Shown here in pieces: positions 2,316-14,293 of a stretch of DNA of 14,293 nucleotides (positions within the stretch are counted from its first letter, which is position 1; every line of letters begins with the position of its first letter). Origin of the DNA: Candidatus Lindowbacteria bacterium RIFCSPLOWO2_12_FULL_62_27 (GTDB taxonomy: Bacteria; Lindowbacteria; 2-12-FULL-62-27); the NCBI GenBank assembly GCA_001784175.1, contig MFPR01000029.1, positions 1 through 14,293 of the forward strand, read 5' to 3'. Under the pieces are notes generated by a model. It was given only the letters and a program-made list of their open reading frames with translations, had not been told where the DNA came from and made no database searches. The translations under genes and the position numbers were made by a program.

Positions 2316-2445
2316 GAACGTGTGAAAAAATGTCGCCATGTGTCATTTCGAGCGCAGCGAGAAATCTTAACTCGCTGAGATTCAAGAAAGATTTCTCGGC
2401 GCTACGCGCCTCGAAATGACAGCCGATGGATTTTTTCACACGTTC
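2316..2445. repeat. Nested palindromic element (MITE/REP-like)
   Basis: An outer perfect 16-bp inverted repeat (2316-2331 with 2430-2445, core CGTGTGAAAAAAT) encloses an inner imperfect pair. The left inner arm, 2341-2368, starts TGTCATTTCGAG and ends CGAGAAATCTT. The right inner arm, 2388-2421, is its reverse complement apart from a changed, 6-nt longer centre, which itself forms a GGCGC-TAC-GCGCC mini-hairpin. The inner arm resembles a palindromic repeat that I recall being scattered in many bacterial genomes (the 'CATTTCGAGCG..GCGAGAAATCT' type). No clear target-site duplication flanks it and it carries no transposase. It sits between two divergent promoters and would extrude or fold as a long hairpin. 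Confidence 0.75.
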
Positions 2446-2475: not shown

Positions 2476-2505
2476 TTGACCCCCCCCCCCCCCAGGATTT
2501 AGACT
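2476..2505 (+). promoter_or_regulatory. Candidate operon promoter with a C-tract spacer
   Basis: TTGACC (2476-2481, 5/6 to the -35 consensus) is followed after 18 nt by TAGACT (2500-2505, 4/6 to the -10 consensus). The spacer is mostly the C-run. Changing the run by one base would move the spacing from 18 to 17 or 19 and so change promoter strength. A weaker alternative (TTGCCT at 2541, AATACT at 2567) has a 20-nt spacer. The transcript would carry a leader of about 85 nt to the ATG at 2597. Confidence 0.5.
2480..2493 (+). repeat. Homopolymer run of 14 C
   Basis: Fourteen consecutive C residues lie upstream of the surface-protein operon, partly overlapping the candidate -35 hexamer. Long C/G runs are slippage-prone in vivo and error-prone in sequencing, so the exact length given by this assembly should be treated with caution. 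Confidence 0.95.
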
Positions 2506-2583
2506 CCCCTGTGATTTTCCGATTTACTGATCCTGACGTATTGCCTCCATGGGATGTGTCGTGGTCAATACTGCTGATTGACG

Positions 2584-2592
2584 AAAGGGGGG
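2584..2592 (+). promoter_or_regulatory. Ribosome-binding site of the giant Ig-repeat gene
   Basis: The purine run AAAGGGGGG lies 4 nt before the ATG at 2597 and 10 nt before a second in-frame ATG at 2603. Either is a workable start; the difference is two residues. No other in-frame ATG, GTG or TTG was found between there and the signal-peptide core, so the start is well bounded. Confidence 0.6.
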
Positions 2593-2596
2593 TCTC

Positions 2597-5500
2597 ATGG
2601 AAATGGGCGAGGCGACGAACGGCGGCGGTTTATCCTCAGCCTGCGGGTTTCGTATACCCACACATCTCTCGCGCTCCCTCTGTGCGCCCGTCTCCCTGTT
2701 TCTGATTTTCACGTTCGCTGTTGCCTGTTGCCTGTTCCCTGTTGCCTCTCCGTCCGCCCACGCCGCCGAAATTCTGAAGGGTACGCTCGCCGATGTTCGG
2801 GGCGACGTCAAAATCCGGCGCGTGGGATCGACGCTCGAAAGCCCGGCGGCCTCCGGCGCGCGCGTCGAACCCGGCGACGCCGTCATCACCGGGGCCTCCG
2901 GTCGCGCGGCCATCCGGTTTGAGCAGGGCGACATCGAAATCGACAACGCCACGCGCCTTACGATTCTTCGGAGCATGTCGAGCCGAAGCGAGGCATTCAG
3001 TGAAATCGCGCTCTCGGACGGGTCTGTCACGGCTGTTGTTAATATGGAGAGGGAGAAAGAGCTTTGGTTTGACATCTTCACGCCCACCCAGCGTTCGCGC
3101 GGCCAATCCCACAAAAAAAATGTGACCCGTCTGACGGTCTCGCACCGCGCGGGCGGAACGACCGTCACGGACAGCGAAGTCGGCCGGTGGGAATATCAGC
3201 CTCTCATCCTGACGGACCAGCCGGCGGCGGTTCAGGCTGCGCTGACGAACAACGCCCAAGCGTCGGCCCTGCTCAAAGATTATCTCACGACCGCCTTGAG
3301 CGACTCATCGATCCGCGCCTACGAAGTCCAGTCGAACGCGGGCGCGCCGGATATCAGCAATGTCGGGGCGCCGAAAAACACTGCGCCGCCCACGATCAGC
3401 GGCAAAATCAAAATTGGCCAGACGATTACGTACGACCCGGGCGCGTGGTCGGGCAAACCGTCGCCGACGTTCACGTACCAGTGGCTTATCGACGGAAAAG
3501 AAATCACCGGCGCGACAGCGCCTACCTACACCATTTTGGAGTCGGACGGCAATCACAAAATATCGTGCCGCGTCATTGCGACAAATTCGAATGGCTCGAC
3601 CTCCGCGACGACGGCCGAGGTGGTCGTCGAGGTCGAAAAACCGTCCTCGACCGCCGCGCCGTCGATCAGAGGAAGGGCCAGGATAGGCAAATCGGTCAAA
3701 TGCGATGCGGGCGCGTGGGCCGGCGATCCGACGATCCTCTACCAGTACCAGTGGGTTCTGGACGGCAAGAACATTTTGGAGGCGACCGATCCGTTTTACA
3801 TCATCGACGTGGAAGACGGCTTTCATAACCTGTCCTGCCTGGTCACCGCGTCGAACGGCGGCGGCCGGACCGCCGCGTCGTCCAAGGAGGTCCGGGTCGA
3901 AATCATCAAGCCATCGAACACCGCCCCGCCGGCCGTTGTCGGCAGTACGAAATTTGGCGGTAAACTTGGCTGTATTCCGGGCAAATGGTTCGGCGATCCG
4001 AAATTGGATTGGAAAGTGCGGTGGCTTCGGGACGGCAAGGAAATTGCCGGCGCGTCTGGCATGGCGTACACCGTGGCGGAATCGGACGGCGGCCGCAAAC
4101 TTACCTGCGAATTAATTTTCTCGAACAAAGCCGGCAGCGCGTCAGCCGCCGCGCCGGAAGTCGAAATCCCCATCGACCCGCCCCTGCCGATCGTCCCGCC
4201 GCAGATCGACGGCGCCGGGCGCATCGGCGCGAAACTGACGTGCAAGCCGGGGCAGTGGGACGGTTTTCCGACGATTCAATACGCCTATCAGTGGCTCCGC
4301 AACGGCGTCGAAATTCCGGGCGCGACCGGCGAAGTCTACGCCGTCACGGAGGCCGACGGCCTTCACAAGATCTCCTGCCGCGTCACGGCCACGAACAAGG
4401 CCGGACCGGTTTCGAGTGCCACAGATGAGATCGATATCGAGGTGATCCCGCCGAAAAACACGAAGCCGCCGGTCATCGCCGGCGTTTCGAAAATCGGCGA
4501 GAACCTGACATGCGCGCCGGGCGAATGGACCGGCGATCCGACGATCACTTACGCGTATCAGTGGTTCCGGGGCGAACAGGAAATTATCGGCGCCACAGAT
4601 GGCGCCGCCCCCGCCGTCAGCGCAACCATGGATGGCGGAGCCGGAAGCGGGGGCGGCGCGACAGGGCCGGCCTACAAGGTCGTTCTTGCGGACGCGCTCC
4701 ATCCGCTAGTCTGCCGCGTGACGGCCGCGAACAAGGGCGGGCAGGCTTCGATGTCGGCCATGATTCAGAGCGACGTCCACCCGCCTGAAAACAAGCGGCC
4801 GCCGGCCGTCACCGGCGCTCCGAAAATCGGCGGGAACCTGACGTGCGCTCCGGGCGAATGGACCGGCGATCCCGTGATCGCATACGCGTATCAGTGGCTC
4901 CGTGGCGACCAGGAAATTTCCGGCGCGACGATGCCGGCCTACACGCTCGTCGATGAGGACGCGTTCCAGTCGCTGACCTGCCGCGTGACGGCCCGCAGCC
5001 CATTCGGGAAAATGTCGTTGACCGCCGCGCCCGTCCTTGTCGATGTCGCCAAACTTTCGAACGTCCACCGCCCGGCCGTTTCCGGCGACGCGAGCGCCGG
5101 CGCGACTCTGACCTGCTCGACCGGCAAATGGTCCGGCGATCCGATCATCAGGTACGCCCACCAGTGGCTGATGGAAGACCAGGAAATCCCGGGCGCGACC
5201 GCCGCCTCGCTCTTGCTCGGACCGGAACACTCGATCCGGAAAATCGTCTGTCGCGTCACTGCGTCGAACGCTGCCGGCCCGGTCGCGGCGGTCAGCGATC
5301 CAGTCTTGGTGAAACCCCGGTATGAAGTCAGCGGGATCGCGACCTACAAAACCCTGTTCGTCGTCGGCGACGAATCCATAGTCGACGGCGAAATTTCCGT
5401 CAACAATCCCGCCAAACTCGCCCTTCCCTTCACCGTCGATTTGACGGTGACGGATCCCGCCGGAAATGAGATCGCGAAGGTTTCGGGCATTCCCGGCGCG

Positions 5501-8500
5501 GCTTCGAATCGCGCGGCGCTGGTCGTCCCGTACGGATTCAAGCTGCCGGCGGCGTCGAAGGCCGGCCAGTATCGGGCGCGGGCGGTTGTGAAAATCAAAT
5601 GGGCCGGCAGCGTCGAGGTCATGCCGATTTCCCGCGACTTCAATCTGTTGAACCTCTCTCCCGCCTCGCCGTCGGCGGGCCGGTGGATCATCGCAGATGT
5701 CCGATCCGACGACCGCATCGCCTATCCCGGCAGGCCGACGAGCGGCAAAATTCTGGTGGACGCGTATCCCACCCAGCTGGAAAACGCCGTCATCGTCATG
5801 ACCATCTCCGGCCAGTCCGGCCGGGTGATATTTGCGCTGAACAAATCCGTGACGATCCCCGCGAGCCAATCGCCCACGCCGTTCCAATATCAATTTGACC
5901 CGCCGGCGGATGCCGAGATTGGCGTCTACACCGCGACGGCGCTCTTGAAGGACGCGCAGGGCGCGGTGATCTGCCTCTACAACTCCGGCAATCCGGTGGA
6001 TATTTTCGAAATCAAACAGACAAGCTCGACGGCGGCGAAACCGCAGGTGCAACTCAAGCCCCTCATCAGCGGGACGCCCAAACTCGGCGGGAAATTGACC
6101 GCCAGTAAGGGCACGTGGACGGGCGCCGCGCCCATCGAATACAAATACCAGTGGACGAAGAATGGCGTGGACGTAGCCGGCGTGACAGACGCGGACTACG
6201 TCGTCGTAGCCGAAGACGCCCTGCAGAAAATCCGATGCCGCGTGACCGCGTCCAACGCCGGCGGGACCGTCCACGCCGTGAGCGACGAGAGGACCGTGAC
6301 GGTCGAAAAGCCGTCGAACCGGACGCCGCCGGCGGTTTCCGCCGAATCGCCCACCAGCATGAAACTGACGTGCAAGATGGGCGACTGGACCGGCGATCCG
6401 ACCATCGCGTTCGCGTACCAGTGGACGCGCGACGGCGTGGACATTGCCGGCGCGACTGCCGCGTCCTACGCCGCGCCGGGGTCGATGTCGGCGCACCAGT
6501 ACGGTTGCCGCGTCACCGCGTCCAACCTCGGCGGCGCCGTCGCGGCCAACAGCAACGCCGTCAATTTCGACGCGGCGAAACTCAAAGTCGCGGCCATCTT
6601 TGCCTATCGGAACGTCTTCGTCACCAAATCCACCGATGAGGTCAACGGCGAGATTACCGTCCAAAACCGCGGAACCCGCGACGTCGATTGCGCGGCCGGC
6701 CTGACGGTCACGGATCCGAATGGCGCGCAGGTGGCCAAACTGACCGGCCTGACCGGCTCGATCCCCGCCATGGACGCGGCGGGCGTGACATTCAAATTCA
6801 ACCTCAATGCGCCCATCGTGATCGACGACGGCCGATCCAAGGCCGCCGCCAACGTCTTCGTCGGCCCCGCATCCGCGCCGGAACTCGCCGCAACGTCCGG
6901 ACAATACATACTGTACCGGATCATCAATCCGCCGCCGCATTTCGCCGCCGGATCGCTCTTGATCGGCGATGTCTCCACGACCCTCAAGGCGATTTATCCG
7001 GGGTCGAAAGTCACGGGCAATATTTTCGCCGACGCGTATACACGCAATGAGGTGCCCGTCATTTTTGATGTGTCGGTTTTCAGCCCGTCCGGGAAAACAG
7101 TCTACACGGGTCAACTGTCCGGGCGAATTCCGTTTTTCGCCGGCATGACTCCGTTCCCATTCGAGTTTTACTTGAAAGACGACGCTGAAATCGGGCTGTA
7201 TTCCGTCAAGGCAAGCGTGAAAGTCGACGGGCCCAACAATTACTTCTTGGCCAACAAATCCTTCGCCTACAATTACGCCGACAAAGCCGACCTCTTCACC
7301 GCCCTCGAGTTTGACGCGTCCGTCAAGAAACCCGCGAACACCGGCTCTCCCGCCATCACCGGCGCGGCGCGGGTCGGCAAGACCCTGACGTGCGCCGTCG
7401 GCCAGTGGTCGGGCGATCAGCCGATGTTGTTCCATTACCAGTGGCTTCGGGACGGCGTCGTCATTCCCAATGCTCGAACCGCCGACTACGCCGTCATCGC
7501 CGCCGACGTGAACCACGACCTCTCCTGCCGGGTCTCGGCCTTGAACGCCGGCGGGAAAGCCACGGTGACGAGCGGAACGGTCAAGGTCAACCCGTCGCGG
7601 CCCGTGAACGAGGCGATGCCGGAGTTGTCCGGCGCGACAGCGGCCCGGATCGGGTCGACGCTGTCCTGCAGTCAGGGCGACTGGACCGGCGATCCGGCGA
7701 TCACGGTCGCGTACCAGTGGACGCGCGACGGCAGGGATATTCCTGGCGCGGCCGCGGCGTCGTATATTCCCGGGTGGGACGACGCCGGCAAGTCCCTCAC
7801 GTGCCGGGTCACCGCGGCCAACAATGTTGGACCGACTTCCGTGTCGCCGCCGGCGATCCCCTTGAAAGTCTATAAGCCCTCGACCGCCGCGCCGCCGCAA
7901 ATCACCGGCAAGGCGGCGATCAACTCCAAATTGATGTGCTCATCCGGCATGTGGTCCGGCGATCCGGCGATCACGATCACCTATCAGTGGCTGCGCGGCG
8001 GCGTGAACATCTCCGGCGCGGCGCAGGCGTCGTACGTCGTCACGGAGGAGGACGGCCTGGAGGCCCTCACGTGCCGGGTCACCGCGACCAACAAGGCCGG
8101 CTCGACTTCGGCGACGCCGGCGGCGCTCACCGTGAACGTCGAGAAACCGTCGAACACTTCGCCCCCTCAACTTGCCGGCACGCCGGCGATCGGATCGAAA
8201 CTGACGTGCAGTCCGAGAACGTGGGCCGGAGATCCGACGATCAAGTTCACCTATCGATGGCTCGTCGACGGCAAGGCCGTATCCGGCGTCGTGTCGCCTG
8301 AATTTACTCCGACCGCAACCCATCTCGGCGGCAGTGACAACTCTCTCGTCACATGCGAGGTGACCGCGCAAAACCTCGGCGGCAGCGCGGTGGTGGAGGC
8401 GGAGCCGGTCGAAATCCTGTCGGGGTCGGCGTCGGGCGCGGACGCCACGGCCGGCGACCTGAAGGTCTACACGGCCGGCAGTGTCGTTTCCGGAAAATTC

Positions 8501-8707
8501 AATGTCCTGAACTCCAAGTCCGTCCAGCGCAACTTCACGGCGGCCCTGACCGCCTCCGACCCGTCGGGAAAAATAGTCTTCACCAAAAATGATTTCGCAG
8601 GCCCCGCCGCCGCGAACGCCTCCGTCGCCGTCCCCTACACATTCACCCTGCCGAAGACCGCCTCCGGCGGCGTGTACAAATTTAAGGTGTCGGTGACGTG
8701 GCAATGA
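2597..8707 (+). CDS. Giant exported FecR-domain protein with 13 Ig-like repeats
   Basis: 2036 aa. A long n-region is followed by the hydrophobic core FLIFTFAVACCLFPVA and a signal-peptidase I site AHA|AE at residues 54-58. Residues about 57-215 resemble a FecR-type domain (LADVRGDVKIRR, GDAVITGASGRAAIRFEQGD). Then come Ig-like repeats of about 90 aa starting near residues 264, 352, 442, 532, 621, 732 and 824; a two-part beta-sandwich module (about 905-1150); repeats at 1152 and 1242; a second two-part module (about 1325-1580); repeats at 1581, 1672, 1764 and 1853; and a final half-module (about 1942-2036). The repeat core is LTC..G.W.GDPTI.YAYQW.RDG..I.GA, then SCRVTATN.GG. Two Cys per repeat suggest an Ig disulfide, hence an oxidising compartment. 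No LPXTG, PEP-CTERM or type IX sorting tail was seen. The product is likely a filamentous adhesin or surface protein, exact role unknown. It is the first gene of the operon; its stop overlaps the next start (ATGA). Confidence 0.9.
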   Translation: MEMGEATNGGGLSSACGFRIPTHLSRSLCAPVSLFLIFTFAVACCLFPVASPSAHAAEILKGTLADVRGDVKIRRVGSTLESPAASGARVEPGDAVITGASGRAAIRFEQGDIEIDNATRLTILRSMSSRSEAFSEIALSDGSVTAVVNMEREKELWFDIFTPTQRSRGQSHKKNVTRLTVSHRAGGTTVTDSEVGRWEYQPLILTDQPAAVQAALTNNAQASALLKDYLTTALSDSSIRAYEVQSNAGAPDISNVGAPKNTAPPTISGKIKIGQTITYDPGAWSGKPSPTFTYQWLIDGKEITGATAPTYTILESDGNHKISCRVIATNSNGSTSATTAEVVVEVEKPSSTAAPSIRGRARIGKSVKCDAGAWAGDPTILYQYQWVLDGKNILEATDPFYIIDVEDGFHNLSCLVTASNGGGRTAASSKEVRVEIIKPSNTAPPAVVGSTKFGGKLGCIPGKWFGDPKLDWKVRWLRDGKEIAGASGMAYTVAESDGGRKLTCELIFSNKAGSASAAAPEVEIPIDPPLPIVPPQIDGAGRIGAKLTCKPGQWDGFPTIQYAYQWLRNGVEIPGATGEVYAVTEADGLHKISCRVTATNKAGPVSSATDEIDIEVIPPKNTKPPVIAGVSKIGENLTCAPGEWTGDPTITYAYQWFRGEQEIIGATDGAAPAVSATMDGGAGSGGGATGPAYKVVLADALHPLVCRVTAANKGGQASMSAMIQSDVHPPENKRPPAVTGAPKIGGNLTCAPGEWTGDPVIAYAYQWLRGDQEISGATMPAYTLVDEDAFQSLTCRVTARSPFGKMSLTAAPVLVDVAKLSNVHRPAVSGDASAGATLTCSTGKWSGDPIIRYAHQWLMEDQEIPGATAASLLLGPEHSIRKIVCRVTASNAAGPVAAVSDPVLVKPRYEVSGIATYKTLFVVGDESIVDGEISVNNPAKLALPFTVDLTVTDPAGNEIAKVSGIPGAASNRAALVVPYGFKLPAASKAGQYRARAVVKIKWAGSVEVMPISRDFNLLNLSPASPSAGRWIIADVRSDDRIAYPGRPTSGKILVDAYPTQLENAVIVMTISGQSGRVIFALNKSVTIPASQSPTPFQYQFDPPADAEIGVYTATALLKDAQGAVICLYNSGNPVDIFEIKQTSSTAAKPQVQLKPLISGTPKLGGKLTASKGTWTGAAPIEYKYQWTKNGVDVAGVTDADYVVVAEDALQKIRCRVTASNAGGTVHAVSDERTVTVEKPSNRTPPAVSAESPTSMKLTCKMGDWTGDPTIAFAYQWTRDGVDIAGATAASYAAPGSMSAHQYGCRVTASNLGGAVAANSNAVNFDAAKLKVAAIFAYRNVFVTKSTDEVNGEITVQNRGTRDVDCAAGLTVTDPNGAQVAKLTGLTGSIPAMDAAGVTFKFNLNAPIVIDDGRSKAAANVFVGPASAPELAATSGQYILYRIINPPPHFAAGSLLIGDVSTTLKAIYPGSKVTGNIFADAYTRNEVPVIFDVSVFSPSGKTVYTGQLSGRIPFFAGMTPFPFEFYLKDDAEIGLYSVKASVKVDGPNNYFLANKSFAYNYADKADLFTALEFDASVKKPANTGSPAITGAARVGKTLTCAVGQWSGDQPMLFHYQWLRDGVVIPNARTADYAVIAADVNHDLSCRVSALNAGGKATVTSGTVKVNPSRPVNEAMPELSGATAARIGSTLSCSQGDWTGDPAITVAYQWTRDGRDIPGAAAASYIPGWDDAGKSLTCRVTAANNVGPTSVSPPAIPLKVYKPSTAAPPQITGKAAINSKLMCSSGMWSGDPAITITYQWLRGGVNISGAAQASYVVTEEDGLEALTCRVTATNKAGSTSATPAALTVNVEKPSNTSPPQLAGTPAIGSKLTCSPRTWAGDPTIKFTYRWLVDGKAVSGVVSPEFTPTATHLGGSDNSLVTCEVTAQNLGGSAVVEAEPVEILSGSASGADATAGDLKVYTAGSVVSGKFNVLNSKSVQRNFTAALTASDPSGKIVFTKNDFAGPAAANASVAVPYTFTLPKTASGGVYKFKVSVTWQ
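2719..2746 (+). repeat. Heptanucleotide tandem repeat in the signal-peptide coding sequence
   Basis: Four 7-nt units in a row: TGTTGCC, TGTTGCC, TGTTCCC, TGTTGCC. They encode the Cys/Val/Pro-containing end of the hydrophobic core. Because 7 is not a multiple of 3, adding one unit leads to a stop at 2920-2922, and losing one leads to a stop no later than 3123-3125. The unit resembles heptamer STRR repeats that I recall from filamentous cyanobacteria, but those are mostly intergenic. Confidence 0.85.
3387..5310 (+). repeat. Ig-like repeat block 1 (7 copies, about 270 bp each)
   Basis: Seven consecutive copies start near 3387, 3652, 3920, 4190, 4459, 4792 and 5066. Copies 5 and 6 are the most similar at DNA level (a shared stretch around GGCGAATGGACCGGCGATCC). 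Copy 5 carries an insertion of about 22 aa rich in Gly and Ala (about 4599-4670). Copy 1 has Tyr in place of the first Cys. Confidence 0.85.
6051..6570 (+). repeat. Ig-like repeat block 2 (2 copies)
   Basis: Two copies start near 6051 and 6320, flanked on both sides by two-part non-Ig modules (about 5311-6050 and 6571-7338). The first copy has Ala (LTASKG) in place of the first Cys, so its second Cys would be unpaired. Confidence 0.8.
7339..8420 (+). repeat. Ig-like repeat block 3 (4 copies)
   Basis: Four copies start near 7339, 7612, 7886 and 8155, all with both Cys. The last copy is slightly longer (insertion THLGGSDNSL before the final VTCEVTA strand). It is followed by a half-module (about 8420-8704) that ends the protein. 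Confidence 0.8.
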
Positions 8708-11700
8708 CGATCGGCAAAAATATGTTCCGGATCCTTTTGTCATCGGTCATTGTTCATTGTTCATTGGTCATTTCAAGTTCCGCCGCCGATCCGACCATCC
8801 GCAATCAGGCGGAATTCTCGGCGTTCAACCTCGTGCCGCCGAAACTCCAGATTCTCTCGGCGATTTCCGACAAGGCCGAATACGATCCCAACAAGAAGGT
8901 GACGCTCGAAATCAAAATCAAAAATCCGGAGGCCGCGGACTTTGACATCGCCGTCGATGTTACGGTCACTGATCCGGCGGGGAAAGACGCCTTCAAGAAA
9001 ACAGGGACGGCCGTGACGATCAAGGCAAACGGCGAGGTAACGGTCACGCAGGACTTCACGCTCTCCAAAACCGCCGCGGCGGGCGGCTACGCGCTTAAGG
9101 CGGTCGTCACATTCAACAAAAACGCCGTCGCGACAAAAGATGCCGCCAATGTCTTCAAAGTCAAACAGCCGGCCCCGCTCACCATCTCGCCCACATCCGT
9201 GATCGTCGGCCGCGGCAAACAGCAGACGTTCACCGCCGCCGGAGCTCAGGGAAAGGCCGTCTTCTCCATGGAAAAAATCATGCCGCCCAACGTCTATGAT
9301 TTCACCGAATATGGCAGTTTTACCGGAAAAGTCTTCACCGCCGGCCAGTTCGGCGGCAAGAAGGTGAAGATTATCGTCAAAGACGAACTCGACCGGACGG
9401 CCGAGGCGATCGCCGAGGTGAGCAGTGAAGTGGAGATCACGGCGCCGGGCGGAACCGAAGTCGAGCCGGGCGGAAGACTACCGCTGGGATACGCCGGCGG
9501 ATCGGACGGCGAACAGGTGACGTTCTGGATCAAATCCAATAAATCCGGCGGCAAAATCGATGCCCAGAAGTACTCCTGGTACTTTGTCCCCGGCTCGGTG
9601 ACCGCCGGCGTCGTCGATCGAGTCTGCGTGAAGGTGAACGGGACCTCCAAAGAGTCCTGTCTCGACGTGAAGGTCACCCCCGCCTCCATCGAGCCCAAAC
9701 TGCTGAACGTCGGTCCCGGACAGAATTTCTATTTCAAGGTCGTCGGCGGAGTCTCGGGCGTTACGCGGACATTCAAGATGAATAAGGGCGCGGATCAATG
9801 CGGAACCATCAACTCGTCCGGCAATTTCACGGCGGGCGCGCTCGAGATTTCCGCGGATCAGGCCAAATCCGGAGTGGTCGAGCTTAATAACAAGTACATC
9901 AATGCGGTCGTGGCGCAGAGGGGCAATGTGGACTTCTGGAAACGAATGGCGACAAATTCTATCCTCTACGCCGATGTCGCCATCAAGTCGAATCCGCTCC
10001 CGCTGACCATCAGTCCCACGTCGGCGGACGCCACGGAGTTTGAGGAGGTCACGTTCACGTTCTCCGGCGGGAAAGGGACGAAGCGGACATTCTCGGTCGT
10101 TGAAGGGCAATCGTATCCGGCGATCAAGGTGTACAAGTTCGGCGGGAAGTATATGGCCGGGCACGTGCTCAGTCCCAAACCCGATCGTGTCCGCGTCGAG
10201 GATGATCAGGGCGGCAAGGCCGACGCCGTCATTACCGTGAAGGCGCCGGAGGAGGAGGACGAGGGATTCGATTTTGTAGGCAAGGCATGGGACCTCGGCG
10301 GGATTGTAGGCGACATCCTGGGAGTGGGCGAGTTGGTTCAACTCGCCAACTTTGGCTACGACCTCGCCATGGGCATACAGGAGGGCAATGAGCGAGAAAA
10401 TTATGTCAAACAAAAATACAGCGAATTCGGCGGCTCCATCTCTCAGGGGCCCTACAAAAAGGGCGCCATCGTCACCGCCACCAACTTGAACGACCCTTCC
10501 CAGACCGTCACCAGCGAGGTCATCGATGATAACGGGCGGTATTACATCAAATGCCCGTGGGACGGCCCGACGAAGATCGAGGCATCGGGGCCGTTCATGG
10601 ACGAATTCACGGGCCGCCAAACAAAGATGCAGGGCGAAATGTCCGCCGTCGCCAACGGCGTGGACTCGAAATTGGTCGCCTGCGACGTCAACATCCCCAC
10701 GACCATCGCCGCCGAGATCGTCGACCGCAAACTGGAAAAAATGAAAGACAGCCGCAAAATGTTCGCCGCCGGCCAGATCGACCTCACCAACGAAAAAGTC
10801 GGCCAAACGATCTGCGGCAAACCCGGCGTAGACATCAGCGAGGTTGAATTCGGCAATCCGGCCGACCCGAATTCCTCCAAAGTCACAAAATTCCACGTCG
10901 CCGTCGCCGCCCTCGCCGGCCCAAACCAGGTCGTCGACGCCGCGAAACAATTCGCCGGCGAAATCTCAACCAACAATCCCGTCGGTTCATCCGGCGGCGT
11001 GGTCAGCGCGGCCGACCTCAAGAAAACGCTGGACAAAATCGAATCGGGCGAGCCCTTCAACGCGAAAACCTCCGCCGGCGTCATCTCTGTCCGGCCGGAA
11101 GATGTCTTCCGGCGGCTTGCGCGCGAGACCGCGCCGGCGCCTGCGCCGCCGGAACCCGCCGTCGCCGGAGTCGACGAGGCCAAAAAAATTCTGACGGCTA
11201 TGGCCGACGCGCTGAATCAAAAAAATGCGCCCGGCCTCCTCGCCCCGGTCGCTCCCGATGCCGTCGTGACGATTCAGGGCAGGCGGTCCGACGCGGCGGG
11301 ACTGCGGCAACTGCTCGCGGCGGCGCTTCCGCTCCTGGACAATGTCCGGTGGACTCCGGAAATCCAGTCGGCGGCGGTCGACCCGAAGACCGGCAACATC
11401 CGCGTGCGCGTGACGTCGTCGTACTCGGCCGATCTCATGGAGCCTGTCGGCGTCACGCGCGCGGCGGTGGCGGCGCCTGCCGAGGTCAAGGCATATCAGA
11501 TGCGGCTCTTGGAATCGTTGCGGGCCACATCCGACGAAATCTATGAATTCAAATCAACTGCGGGCGGCCTCCAACTGGTCGAGATGGTCTCCGGTCTGCC
11601 CTTCAGCGCCGACCTGGCCGGCAAAATCGCCCGCCTCATGGCTGCGTGGCGGGTGAAGGTCGCGGTGTTCGGGCTGTTCGATCATCTGGAACAGAACAAT

Positions 11701-13005
11701 CTCGACAAATTCGCGGACCTCGTCGGCGCCGATTTCGTCAACAACGACGATAACGGATTCAAACACAACCGAACCGATTTTCTGGAGTCGGTGAAGGCCG
11801 ACCTCGATCACTTGACTTCGATCGATCACACCGTCCGCGTAGATGACATTCAGTTCAACGCAGACCTGACCTCCGCGCGGGTCCCCGTCTCATGGGACCG
11901 CCGGGCGCGAATCGCGAACAAGAATACGGAGTGGACGATCAAGGACCAGAAGACGACACTGACGTTGCGCCGCGGCCCGGAATTCGGGCTTGTCCAAGTC
12001 GAAGGCAAGCCGCTCTTCGGCAATTCCAGCCGGATTACGCGCAAGACGCTGATCGGCGCGGGCGAACTCGACGGAACGGCGATCACGCTGGCCATCGCGA
12101 TTAGCGACGCGCGCGAGACGGCCACTGCGACGTCGTCCGACTTTCCGGGAGTTTCCTTGAGCAACATTGTCGGGTCCGCCGTCGGAACGTCACAAACATT
12201 TACGTATACCGGCGCCGTGCAGACCTTCACGGCGCCCGCGAACCTTAGTTTCACCATCAAGGCGTGGGGCGCCGGCGGAGGCGGGGGCGGATGGGACGTC
12301 GGTACTGGAGGCGATGGCGGCGGTGGCGCCTATGCCACAACAACGCTCGTTTTGGCCAAGGGAAGTGTTATTCAGATATATGTGGGCGGCGGCGGCGACT
12401 CGGGAGCCACTTCTGTCGCCAATACGGGCGCCGGCTCGGGCGGATTTGGGTATGGTTCGGGCGGTCGGGGCGGAAAAGCCGGAGGGACGCCCAATTCGGG
12501 ATCGGGCGGCGGCGGCGGCGGATCGACGGCGGTTACGAATCAGAGTGGAACCACATTCCACCTGGTTGCGGCCGGCGGTGGCGGCGGCGGTGGCGCCGGA
12601 TTTACCAACCCGAATCGTGATGGTGGAGCGGGCGGCGTAGGCGGGCAGAATGGAACGACGGCCAGCGGCGCCGGGGGAGCAACGGGCGCCTCCGGATCAA
12701 AAGATGGAACTGATGGCGGCGACAGGGGAGCAGCCGCTGACGGCGGCGGTGGCGGCGGCGGTGGTGGCGGATATACCGCCGGCGGCACGGGAGGCAATGC
12801 AGGCTCCGGTGACAATGGCGGCGGAGGCGGCGCCGGGGGAAACAGCACCGGCACCGTCACGGCCGGCAGCGGCAAGACGCCCGGCAATTCGACAGACGCG
12901 GATCTGACCGCCGGCCTCGCGGCAGGCGGCAGCGGTTCCACCGGAAATACAGTCGCAACCAGAGCAACCCCCGGCGGCGCCGGGATGGTGAAAATATCAT
13001 GGTAG
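8704..13005 (+). CDS. Large exported multidomain protein: Ig-like, carboxypeptidase-regulatory-like, two NTF2-like domains and a glycine-rich C-terminus
   Basis: 1433 aa from ATG 8704, chosen because ATGA (8704-8707) overlaps the upstream stop, a translational-coupling arrangement; GTG at 8698 and ATG at 8722 are alternatives. Signal peptide: core FRILLSSVIVHCSLVIS, cleavage near SAA|DP (residues 26-30). Domains: a beta-sandwich (about 32-156) matching the last domain of the upstream protein; several bacterial Ig-like domains (about 160-515, two opening PLTISPTS); an acidic linker EEEDEG; a helical stretch (about 522-560); a carboxypeptidase-regulatory-like sandwich (about 576-640, GGSISQG..VTATN..DDNGRYYI); an Ala/Pro linker (PAPAPPEP); two NTF2/SnoaL-like domains (about 823-970 and 983-1102, the second ending LVQVEGKPLFG); and a Gly-rich domain (about 1163-1433) of the type related to ALK/LTK receptors (Pfam Gly_rich, from memory), opening TFTYTGAVQTFTAPA and closing GMVKISW. 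No catalytic motif was seen. Likely a surface or periplasmic scaffold or adhesin. Confidence 0.88.
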   Translation: MTIGKNMFRILLSSVIVHCSLVISSSAADPTIRNQAEFSAFNLVPPKLQILSAISDKAEYDPNKKVTLEIKIKNPEAADFDIAVDVTVTDPAGKDAFKKTGTAVTIKANGEVTVTQDFTLSKTAAAGGYALKAVVTFNKNAVATKDAANVFKVKQPAPLTISPTSVIVGRGKQQTFTAAGAQGKAVFSMEKIMPPNVYDFTEYGSFTGKVFTAGQFGGKKVKIIVKDELDRTAEAIAEVSSEVEITAPGGTEVEPGGRLPLGYAGGSDGEQVTFWIKSNKSGGKIDAQKYSWYFVPGSVTAGVVDRVCVKVNGTSKESCLDVKVTPASIEPKLLNVGPGQNFYFKVVGGVSGVTRTFKMNKGADQCGTINSSGNFTAGALEISADQAKSGVVELNNKYINAVVAQRGNVDFWKRMATNSILYADVAIKSNPLPLTISPTSADATEFEEVTFTFSGGKGTKRTFSVVEGQSYPAIKVYKFGGKYMAGHVLSPKPDRVRVEDDQGGKADAVITVKAPEEEDEGFDFVGKAWDLGGIVGDILGVGELVQLANFGYDLAMGIQEGNERENYVKQKYSEFGGSISQGPYKKGAIVTATNLNDPSQTVTSEVIDDNGRYYIKCPWDGPTKIEASGPFMDEFTGRQTKMQGEMSAVANGVDSKLVACDVNIPTTIAAEIVDRKLEKMKDSRKMFAAGQIDLTNEKVGQTICGKPGVDISEVEFGNPADPNSSKVTKFHVAVAALAGPNQVVDAAKQFAGEISTNNPVGSSGGVVSAADLKKTLDKIESGEPFNAKTSAGVISVRPEDVFRRLARETAPAPAPPEPAVAGVDEAKKILTAMADALNQKNAPGLLAPVAPDAVVTIQGRRSDAAGLRQLLAAALPLLDNVRWTPEIQSAAVDPKTGNIRVRVTSSYSADLMEPVGVTRAAVAAPAEVKAYQMRLLESLRATSDEIYEFKSTAGGLQLVEMVSGLPFSADLAGKIARLMAAWRVKVAVFGLFDHLEQNNLDKFADLVGADFVNNDDNGFKHNRTDFLESVKADLDHLTSIDHTVRVDDIQFNADLTSARVPVSWDRRARIANKNTEWTIKDQKTTLTLRRGPEFGLVQVEGKPLFGNSSRITRKTLIGAGELDGTAITLAIAISDARETATATSSDFPGVSLSNIVGSAVGTSQTFTYTGAVQTFTAPANLSFTIKAWGAGGGGGGWDVGTGGDGGGGAYATTTLVLAKGSVIQIYVGGGGDSGATSVANTGAGSGGFGYGSGGRGGKAGGTPNSGSGGGGGGSTAVTNQSGTTFHLVAAGGGGGGGAGFTNPNRDGGAGGVGGQNGTTASGAGGATGASGSKDGTDGGDRGAAADGGGGGGGGGGYTAGGTGGNAGSGDNGGGGGAGGNSTGTVTAGSGKTPGNSTDADLTAGLAAGGSGSTGNTVATRATPGGAGMVKISW
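8738..8772 (+). repeat. Heptanucleotide tandem repeat in the signal-peptide coding sequence
   Basis: Five 7-nt units: TGTCATC, GGTCATT, GTTCATT, GTTCATT, GGTCATT, encoding the core VIVHCSLVI. Adding one unit leads to TGA at 8943-8945; losing one leads to TGA at 8900-8902. Either would abolish the protein. Units of this kind recall cyanobacterial STRR heptamers (from memory). Confidence 0.85.
12190..13005 (+). other. Glycine-rich C-terminal domain coding region
   Basis: About 270 codons dominated by Gly with Ala, Thr and Ser, with Gly runs up to 10 or 11. The opening YTGAVQTFTAPANLSFTIKAWGAGGGGGG and the terminal beta-strand MVKISW are the signature ends of a glycine-rich fold that packs polyglycine type II helices, known from ALK-family receptors and some phage tail adhesins. 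The DNA is a low-complexity GGC/GGN tract that could slip or recombine. The long proline-rich frame on the opposite strand is a by-product of it. Confidence 0.7.
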
Positions 13006-14293
13006 TCACCCACCCCTTCCTGCCTTCCTGCCTTCCTTATAAAAAATATCTCTTTTTCTTTTTACTCTTCTCCATTTCCTGCTCCTTCTCCCCCAACCGG
13101 GCCGATGCCCTGTCGATCATGTACCCCGGCGAAGGCCTGAAGACCGTCGTGTCCGCGGCCGGCGAGGAAGTGAAGAAAGTATTGGACGCGGACAACGACG
13201 TGTCGCGCGCGGCAAAGGGCGCGCTGAACCTGATCGACCCGAACACATGGGCGACGCATTTCGACCAGTTCGACATGGACCTCACGCTCTCGGCCTATCA
13301 CAACACCATCGACGGCAACCGCACGCGCTCGTTCCTGAAACCGGGGACGCAGACGCAGGAGCAGGCGAACATCGGCGGCAAAAAACGCTACGCGAATTTC
13401 GGCGGCGGGGAGTTCGAGTTCAAATCGTCGCTCCGCTCGACGGACGATCGGCAGGTCGACGCGGTGAAACGAACGCGCCTGCAGGGACTGTACGGCACGT
13501 TCTCGCGTCCTGACGACTACTCCCTGCGACTCGGCAACGTGAGCGGATCGTTCACGTCGTATTCGTTGTCATCGAGCGCGAATGTGGGGGCGCACCTGAC
13601 GAAAGAATTGGGCGGGAAAAATATGTTTCAGGAAATGCAACTCTATTTCGGCCGGCCGACGCGGCACATCGAAGGCAGTTCGTTCACGCGGTACGTCGGA
13701 GGGATGCGCCTAGCGGACCTCGAAGTGGAGGGATGGGACAAGCTGGACAAATTCGGGCTGTCCTACGTCAAGACGAAAGACATCGTGGACAGCATCAAGG
13801 ACACGAGCGCGCGCCCGGCGAACGCGGTGGAGAACCAAGTGGTGTCGGCGGACGCGAGTTTCAAATTCGGCGACGACGCCCAGGTAGCGGCCGAGTGGGC
13901 GTATTCAAAAACCGACCCGAACACGCAGTCGAATCCCGCGGACCGCCTCAAGGGGTCGGCCTACAAGGTGAACGGGTCGTATCGGGCCAAGGCGCGTTTG
14001 GGATTCGACGCGACGAGCGTGACGTCGTCATTCGAGGAAGTCGACCCGGACTTTCGCTCGACCAGCGGCGGCGGATCGCCGGACGCGCGTCGGGCAACGC
14101 TGGGCCTGAACAGCGGGATGAAACTCCACGGCAACCTGCCGGACCTCACGATGTCGTACAGCGGCAATTCGAGCCGGAACAACCTCGAAAACCAGATCGC
14201 GCGCCGGACGACCTCGACGGTGCACAATTTCAATTTCAGTTTCAAGCCGTACCAGAAAACGAAGGACGTTTCCGGTGAATTGTGGAACACCGC
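12999..14293 (+). CDS. 5' part of outer-membrane beta-barrel protein (continues at 2-1003 across the join)
   Basis: ATG 12999 overlaps the upstream stop (TAG 13003-13005) by 7 nt, with GGATGGTG about 8 nt upstream as a possible ribosome-binding site. Signal peptide: n-region with KK at 15-16, core YLFFFLLFSISCSF, cleavage ADA|LS at residues 35-39; no proper lipobox. After a helical segment (about 45-75) the protein is a long series of amphipathic strands (FDMDLTLSAY, YSLRLGNVSGSFTSYSL, FQEMQLYF, FGLSYVKT, VSADASFKF), as expected of an outer-membrane barrel. The frame runs off the right edge; joined to 2-1003 it gives 757 aa, with an NTF2-like domain at the end. This frame is one ORF of about 430 codons from 12999. 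I do not recognise the barrel family. It is the third gene of the operon, possibly the membrane anchor or port for the two upstream proteins. Confidence 0.88.
   Translation, partial: MVVTHPFLPSCLPYKKYLFFFLLFSISCSFSPNRADALSIMYPGEGLKTVVSAAGEEVKKVLDADNDVSRAAKGALNLIDPNTWATHFDQFDMDLTLSAYHNTIDGNRTRSFLKPGTQTQEQANIGGKKRYANFGGGEFEFKSSLRSTDDRQVDAVKRTRLQGLYGTFSRPDDYSLRLGNVSGSFTSYSLSSSANVGAHLTKELGGKNMFQEMQLYFGRPTRHIEGSSFTRYVGGMRLADLEVEGWDKLDKFGLSYVKTKDIVDSIKDTSARPANAVENQVVSADASFKFGDDAQVAAEWAYSKTDPNTQSNPADRLKGSAYKVNGSYRAKARLGFDATSVTSSFEEVDPDFRSTSGGGSPDARRATLGLNSGMKLHGNLPDLTMSYSGNSSRNNLENQIARRTTSTVHNFNFSFKPYQKTKDVSGELWNT
13015..13038 (+). repeat. Octanucleotide tandem repeat in the signal-peptide n-region coding sequence
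   Basis: Three 8-nt units: CCTTCCTG, CCTTCCTG, CCTTCCTT, encoding most of residues 6-13 (PFLPSCLP) just before the KK and hydrophobic core. Loss of one unit puts TAA at 13040-13042 in frame at once; gain of one unit leads to TGA at 13138-13140. Confidence 0.8.
14270..14293. repeat. Terminal direct repeat (right copy)
   Basis: Identical to bases 1-24 in the same orientation; see the left copy. It encodes the same residues (SGELWNTA) in the same frame, which is what permits the barrel gene to be joined across the ends. Confidence 0.85.

Follow-up and report, generated by a model that had tools for sequence, protein, structure and literature searches.

Transcriptional phase variation through the spacer of a promoter is known mainly in host-adapted pathogens. 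In Neisseria, the surface-protein gene fetA (frpB) carries a poly-C tract between its -10 and -35 boxes that ranges from C10 to C14 among strains (PMC5320596), and porA carries a poly-G tract in the same position, where the spacing, around an optimum of 17 nt, sets the level of transcription (PMC7864442). A poly-C is also found in the promoter of the Neisseria outer-membrane protein gene opc, with 11 versus 12 C altering expression (PMC3447861); here the tract lies over the -35 region, and its effect is probably mediated by a regulator (PMC7864442). Similarly, the length of a C-stretch controls the transcription of the surface-appendage genes fim2 and fim3 of Bordetella: a tract shortened by one C no longer yields Fim3 (PMC1891110, PMC10172299), and tract length determines how far an activator site lies from the -10 box (PMC1891110).

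The locus described here lies in a window of 14,293 nt (the whole stretch of DNA that was analysed), which is the entire contig C29 of a 4.39-Mb genome in 44 contigs (G000); the named genomes closest to it are JACQOF01, a MAG from groundwater, and a MAG of Candidatus Lindowbacteria. Its features are the following:

2316..2445, no strand: palindromic MITE-like element with 16-nt terminal inverted repeats (context only)
2476..2481, + strand: -35 hexamer TTGACC, from a consensus scan; TTGAC and the preceding GTCC are conserved in the paralog on contig C26 and in G002:C129
2480..2493, + strand: C14 homopolymer, mostly in the -35/-10 spacer, read from the sequence; without counterpart in the homologous promoters
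2500..2505, + strand: -10 hexamer TAGACT, from a consensus scan; this position reads TAGATT in the paralog and TATATT in the ortholog
2506..2596, + strand: leader of gene 1, with a conserved counterpart in the paralog; transcription start predicted at about 2511-2514 from the position of the -10 only
2597..8707, + strand: gene 1, an ORF of 2036 aa with signal peptide, Ig-like repeats and MG2 (Pfam Ig_2 and MG2); ATG conserved in the homologs
8698..13005, + strand: gene 2, 1435 aa, with signal peptide, SnoaL-like domain (Pfam) and Gly-rich C terminus; overlaps gene 1; paralogs in the genome
12999..14293, + strand: gene 3, represented by its N-terminal 431 aa; its start lies within the end of gene 2, and its remainder would be at 25-1003 in a circular contig or otherwise on another contig

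A preliminary description had reported a run of 14 C in a mostly poly-C spacer between TTGACC and TAGACT, 18 nt apart, and this is borne out: C occupies 12 of the 18 spacer positions, and the first two C of the run double as the last two bases of TTGACC. With 14 C at 2480-2493, the run exceeds the length of about 9 that was sought in a homopolymer flanked by recognisable -35 and -10 boxes. The window shares with fetA a poly-C in the -10/-35 spacer, but variation and expression change have been shown in fetA, whereas the tract of the window is known from the sequence of one genome, that of an unrelated organism, and stands before unrelated genes. With porA it shares a homopolymer in the spacer, although the tract is poly-G and experimentally proven in the one and poly-C in the other. 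As to opc and Bordetella fim, the likeness is a poly-C in the promoter or promoter region; the opc tract, however, covers the -35 region, and the fim tract sets a distance between activator site and -10, while no activator site is known at the window promoter. The closer precedents are fetA and porA rather than opc and fim, and among the comparisons drawn earlier, the one with porA (poly-G between the hexamers) holds, whereas those with opc (tract overlapping the -35) and Bordetella fim (activator spacing) are looser analogues (PMC7864442, PMC1891110).

Is there a promoter at this place at all? Among the sigma70-type hits of the consensus scan, TTGACC/TAGACT is the only one on the + strand, and a rough sigma70 matrix ranks it as the top-scoring + strand site of the window, but the scan alone proves nothing, its 3 hits being no more than expected by chance (3.2 in shuffles). 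Two homologous operon heads were therefore compared with this one, namely a paralog in the same genome (G000:C26, at about 82.8 kb) and an ortholog in another genus (G002:C129). The paralog is 77% identical to positions 2469-2767 of the window, a stretch that begins shortly upstream of the -35 and reaches into the signal peptide, and its promoter reads TTGACG-N17-TAGATT; that of the ortholog, TTGACG-N17-TATATT, is close to consensus. In an alignment of the promoters, GTCCTTGAC is common to them, as are most of GATTTAGACT and the TCCCC that follows it; the spacer differs, the window having one base more. Because both heads keep the hexamers, the leader and the start codon (the -35, the -10, the discriminator, the leader and the ATG of gene 1 are conserved in the paralog and in the other genus), TTGACC/TAGACT is likely the real promoter of the operon, which supports its earlier assignment. 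The homologous spacers are of 17 nt, mixed but C-rich (CTTTCCCCTGCC, CTTTCGCCCGCC), and a poly-C tract was found neither in the paralog nor in the other-genus ortholog, the comparison with other genomes covering distant relatives. A conserved C or G run at the same place in relatives, which the preliminary description had proposed to look for and which would support a fetA/porA-type locus without strictly defining it, is thus absent from these two promoters; the C14, in turn, would most simply be a private expansion in the window copy, lengthening its spacer from 17 nt to 18. For a contingency locus, strains of the same species are the comparison that matters.

No C/G run longer than the C14 was found in the genome, and the remaining C or G runs of the window reach at most 6. 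Genome-wide, C/G runs of at least 9 number six (9, 9, 9, 9, 10 and 14), against 5.3 expected by extrapolation from 151 kb of the genome, where the counts of such runs drop about fivefold per added base; for runs of 14 or more, the same extrapolation gives 0.0013 against the one found, in a null that ignores slippage. Slippage itself lengthens tracts, so that the outlier status of the C14 is evidence of an unusual mutational history, not of selection. The C14 stands alone as an outlier, with no general tendency of the genome towards such tracts; the idea of C-tract promoters across the genome was considered and rejected, with only one of the six long C/G runs in a promoter-like place.

Downstream of the promoter, three ORFs overlap each other (genes 1 and 2 at 8698/8707, genes 2 and 3 at 12999/13005), and each begins, as judged by eye, like a signal peptide; with 2036 aa, 1435 aa and 431 aa or more, they agree with the three large exported proteins noted previously. 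By these starts and by the Ig-like and MG2 domains they qualify as exported determinants, and the products are putative surface or secreted proteins. Parts of the same gene set recur at other loci of the genome (contigs C39, C26, C41, C3 and C2), the paralogs of gene 3 being of about 760-800 aa, and the operon is one of several paralogous operons of a multi-copy family.

Beyond this genome, TTGA followed by poly-C and then TANANT occurs in 2 of 386 diverse genomes, this one and the distant G374, and the reversed pattern in none. The G374 promoter, TTGA-C14-GTGT-TATACT (L070:1501-1528, corresponding to G374:C122:5573-5600), has a spacer of 16 and is accompanied by AGGAGG and a lipoprotein-like product; it is convincing by itself, and its locus had no match in the one same-genus genome examined (G386). 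Shorter tracts are found in G552 (C7, about 47514; L231), where a TTGA-C9 promoter with a consensus TATAAT at 17 nt lies ahead of a pilin-like gene with a prepilin-like start (MSFKKGFTLAEILIVLMVIG), and in G002, of the same family as the window's genome (C106, about 62968; L202), where a C9 sits in the spacer of a good promoter, TTGACA-N18-TAGGAT, ahead of an acyl-carrier-protein gene and then a ketoacyl-synthase-like frame. In viral contigs, TTGA-C10 and longer is followed by TANANT at a spacing of 15-19 in 7 of 75 sites, some of them near-duplicates, which is a weak signal; two viral contigs with the 18-nt flank of the window were dismissed as coincidence, the surrounding sequence being unrelated.

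We favour, with a probability of about 0.55, the reading that a sigma70-type promoter of a three-gene exported-protein operon has had its spacer overtaken by C14 and has become a contingency locus at the level of transcription. Slipped-strand mispairing at replication would make the tract gain or lose C within the population, and tract length would set the -35/-10 distance (16 nt for C12, 17 for C13, 18 for C14, 19 for C15 and 20 for C16), with transcription peaking near C13 and falling away on both sides; the graded expression would then vary the set of surface or secreted proteins, and this would be the selected role. Spacing control as in fetA and porA is the best-supported mechanism. A rough sigma70 matrix forecasts 12.9 bits at C13, 11.8 at C14, 8.9 at C16 and 7.4 at C10, a modelled maximum at C13 with a loss to either side. 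The contingency reading is favoured because the homologous promoters fix the place of the promoter, because the C14 is a strong genome outlier within an 18-nt spacer, because the downstream genes are exported and belong to a multi-copy family, because the C14 promoter of G374 also precedes an exported protein, and because of the fetA precedent of C10-C14 between -10 and -35 (PMC5320596). Against it, the tract is known from one genome and not conserved at the homologous promoters, the C9 spacer of the relative G002 precedes an acyl-carrier-protein gene, for which switching is not expected, and the genome encodes MutS, so that no mutator background is indicated (a mutS-deficient mutator was rejected). 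Phase variation of the operon is plausible, and the window locus is probably a contingency locus of the known fetA/porA type. If so, a case in an uncultured lineage without known host would suggest that surface variation also pays in the environment (phages, grazers, attachment). More speculatively, and on balance doubtful, poly-C switches in the promoter spacers of exported-protein genes may have evolved independently in uncultured environmental bacteria, TTGA-C14 having arisen separately here and in G374 and toggling here one member of a multi-copy surface-operon family.

One member of a redundant surface family is a place where phase variation would be expected, but also neutral decay, and the main rival, which we regard as a serious possibility, is that a C-rich spacer passed the slippage threshold in one redundant operon copy: the length may vary, but the switching would be unselected and the promoter drifting or decaying. 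The homologous spacers are indeed already C-rich, the operon has paralogs, and the -10 shows a drift off the consensus (TATATT, TAGATT, TAGACT), that of the window being weaker than those of the homologs, so that the promoter might be decaying; moreover, in six genomes most C runs of 9 or more lie outside promoters, some of them, of 11-14 C, without visible role. Neutral expansion, however, sits less easily with a single outlier run placed exactly between -35 and -10 and with the retention of both hexamers, the discriminator and the reading frames. Were it correct, the window would offer a clean example of a C-rich spacer drifting into a would-be contingency locus.

Two further explanations concern the tract itself. 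Most platforms miscount long homopolymers, and in related draft genomes some long C runs (36, 19 and 13 C) lie at contig ends or beside N, which raises the question of whether the run, or its length, was misread from a shorter or interrupted C-rich spacer; nonetheless, it lies 2.5 kb inside the contig with flanks intact and alignable to the homologs, and the genome has no general excess of long C runs, which makes such a sequencing or assembly error improbable. Slighter still is the chance that the tract works via a bound regulator or an unusual DNA structure instead of the -35/-10 spacing. The tract overlaps the end of the -35, and precedents exist in opc and, for activator spacing, in Bordetella fim (PMC7864442, PMC1891110), but no operator-like repeat was seen at the tract, and the homologs have near-consensus -35 and -10 boxes at optimal spacing, so that an activator need not be assumed.

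Regarding the contig, its first 24 nt (1-24) equal its last 24 (14270-14293), with gene 3 in frame across the junction, and this stretch is also contained in contig C39 (at its end) and contig C26 (at its start). Both a circle and a linear order C39-C29-C26 are possible; a circular plasmid was not preferred, since the shared ends are explained at least as well if the assembly broke at a repeat that the paralogous copies of gene 3 have in common. Gene 2 gave no match against plasmids, and an Rfam search no match. An AAA_14/DUF4143 ATPase gene (1000-2223) adjoins the operon, and the homologous operons in C26 and G002 also adjoin related ATPase genes, but in opposite orientation. Between ATPase gene and promoter, the near-perfect palindrome of 130 nt ends 30 nt before the -35 and folds as a DNA hairpin of -43.8 kcal/mol (z -8.95); short stretches of other genomes resemble its core, and a second copy was not found in G000.

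Within gene 1, four imperfect GTTGCCT heptamers (2718-2747) lie in the signal-peptide codons, with a hydrophobic reading in all three frames, and gain or loss of a unit would shift the frame, making the repeat a candidate for a second, translational, slippage site; it recurs in the corresponding gene part both in the paralogs and in another exported protein, of G001 (L024). Furthermore, two exported proteins of related operons (L056:13151-19312 and L059:2678-7102) have a signal peptide directly followed by a ubiquitin domain (Pfam ubiquitin, with E values of 7e-28 and 7e-24), and they also carry Ig-like, MG2 or F5/8C domains.
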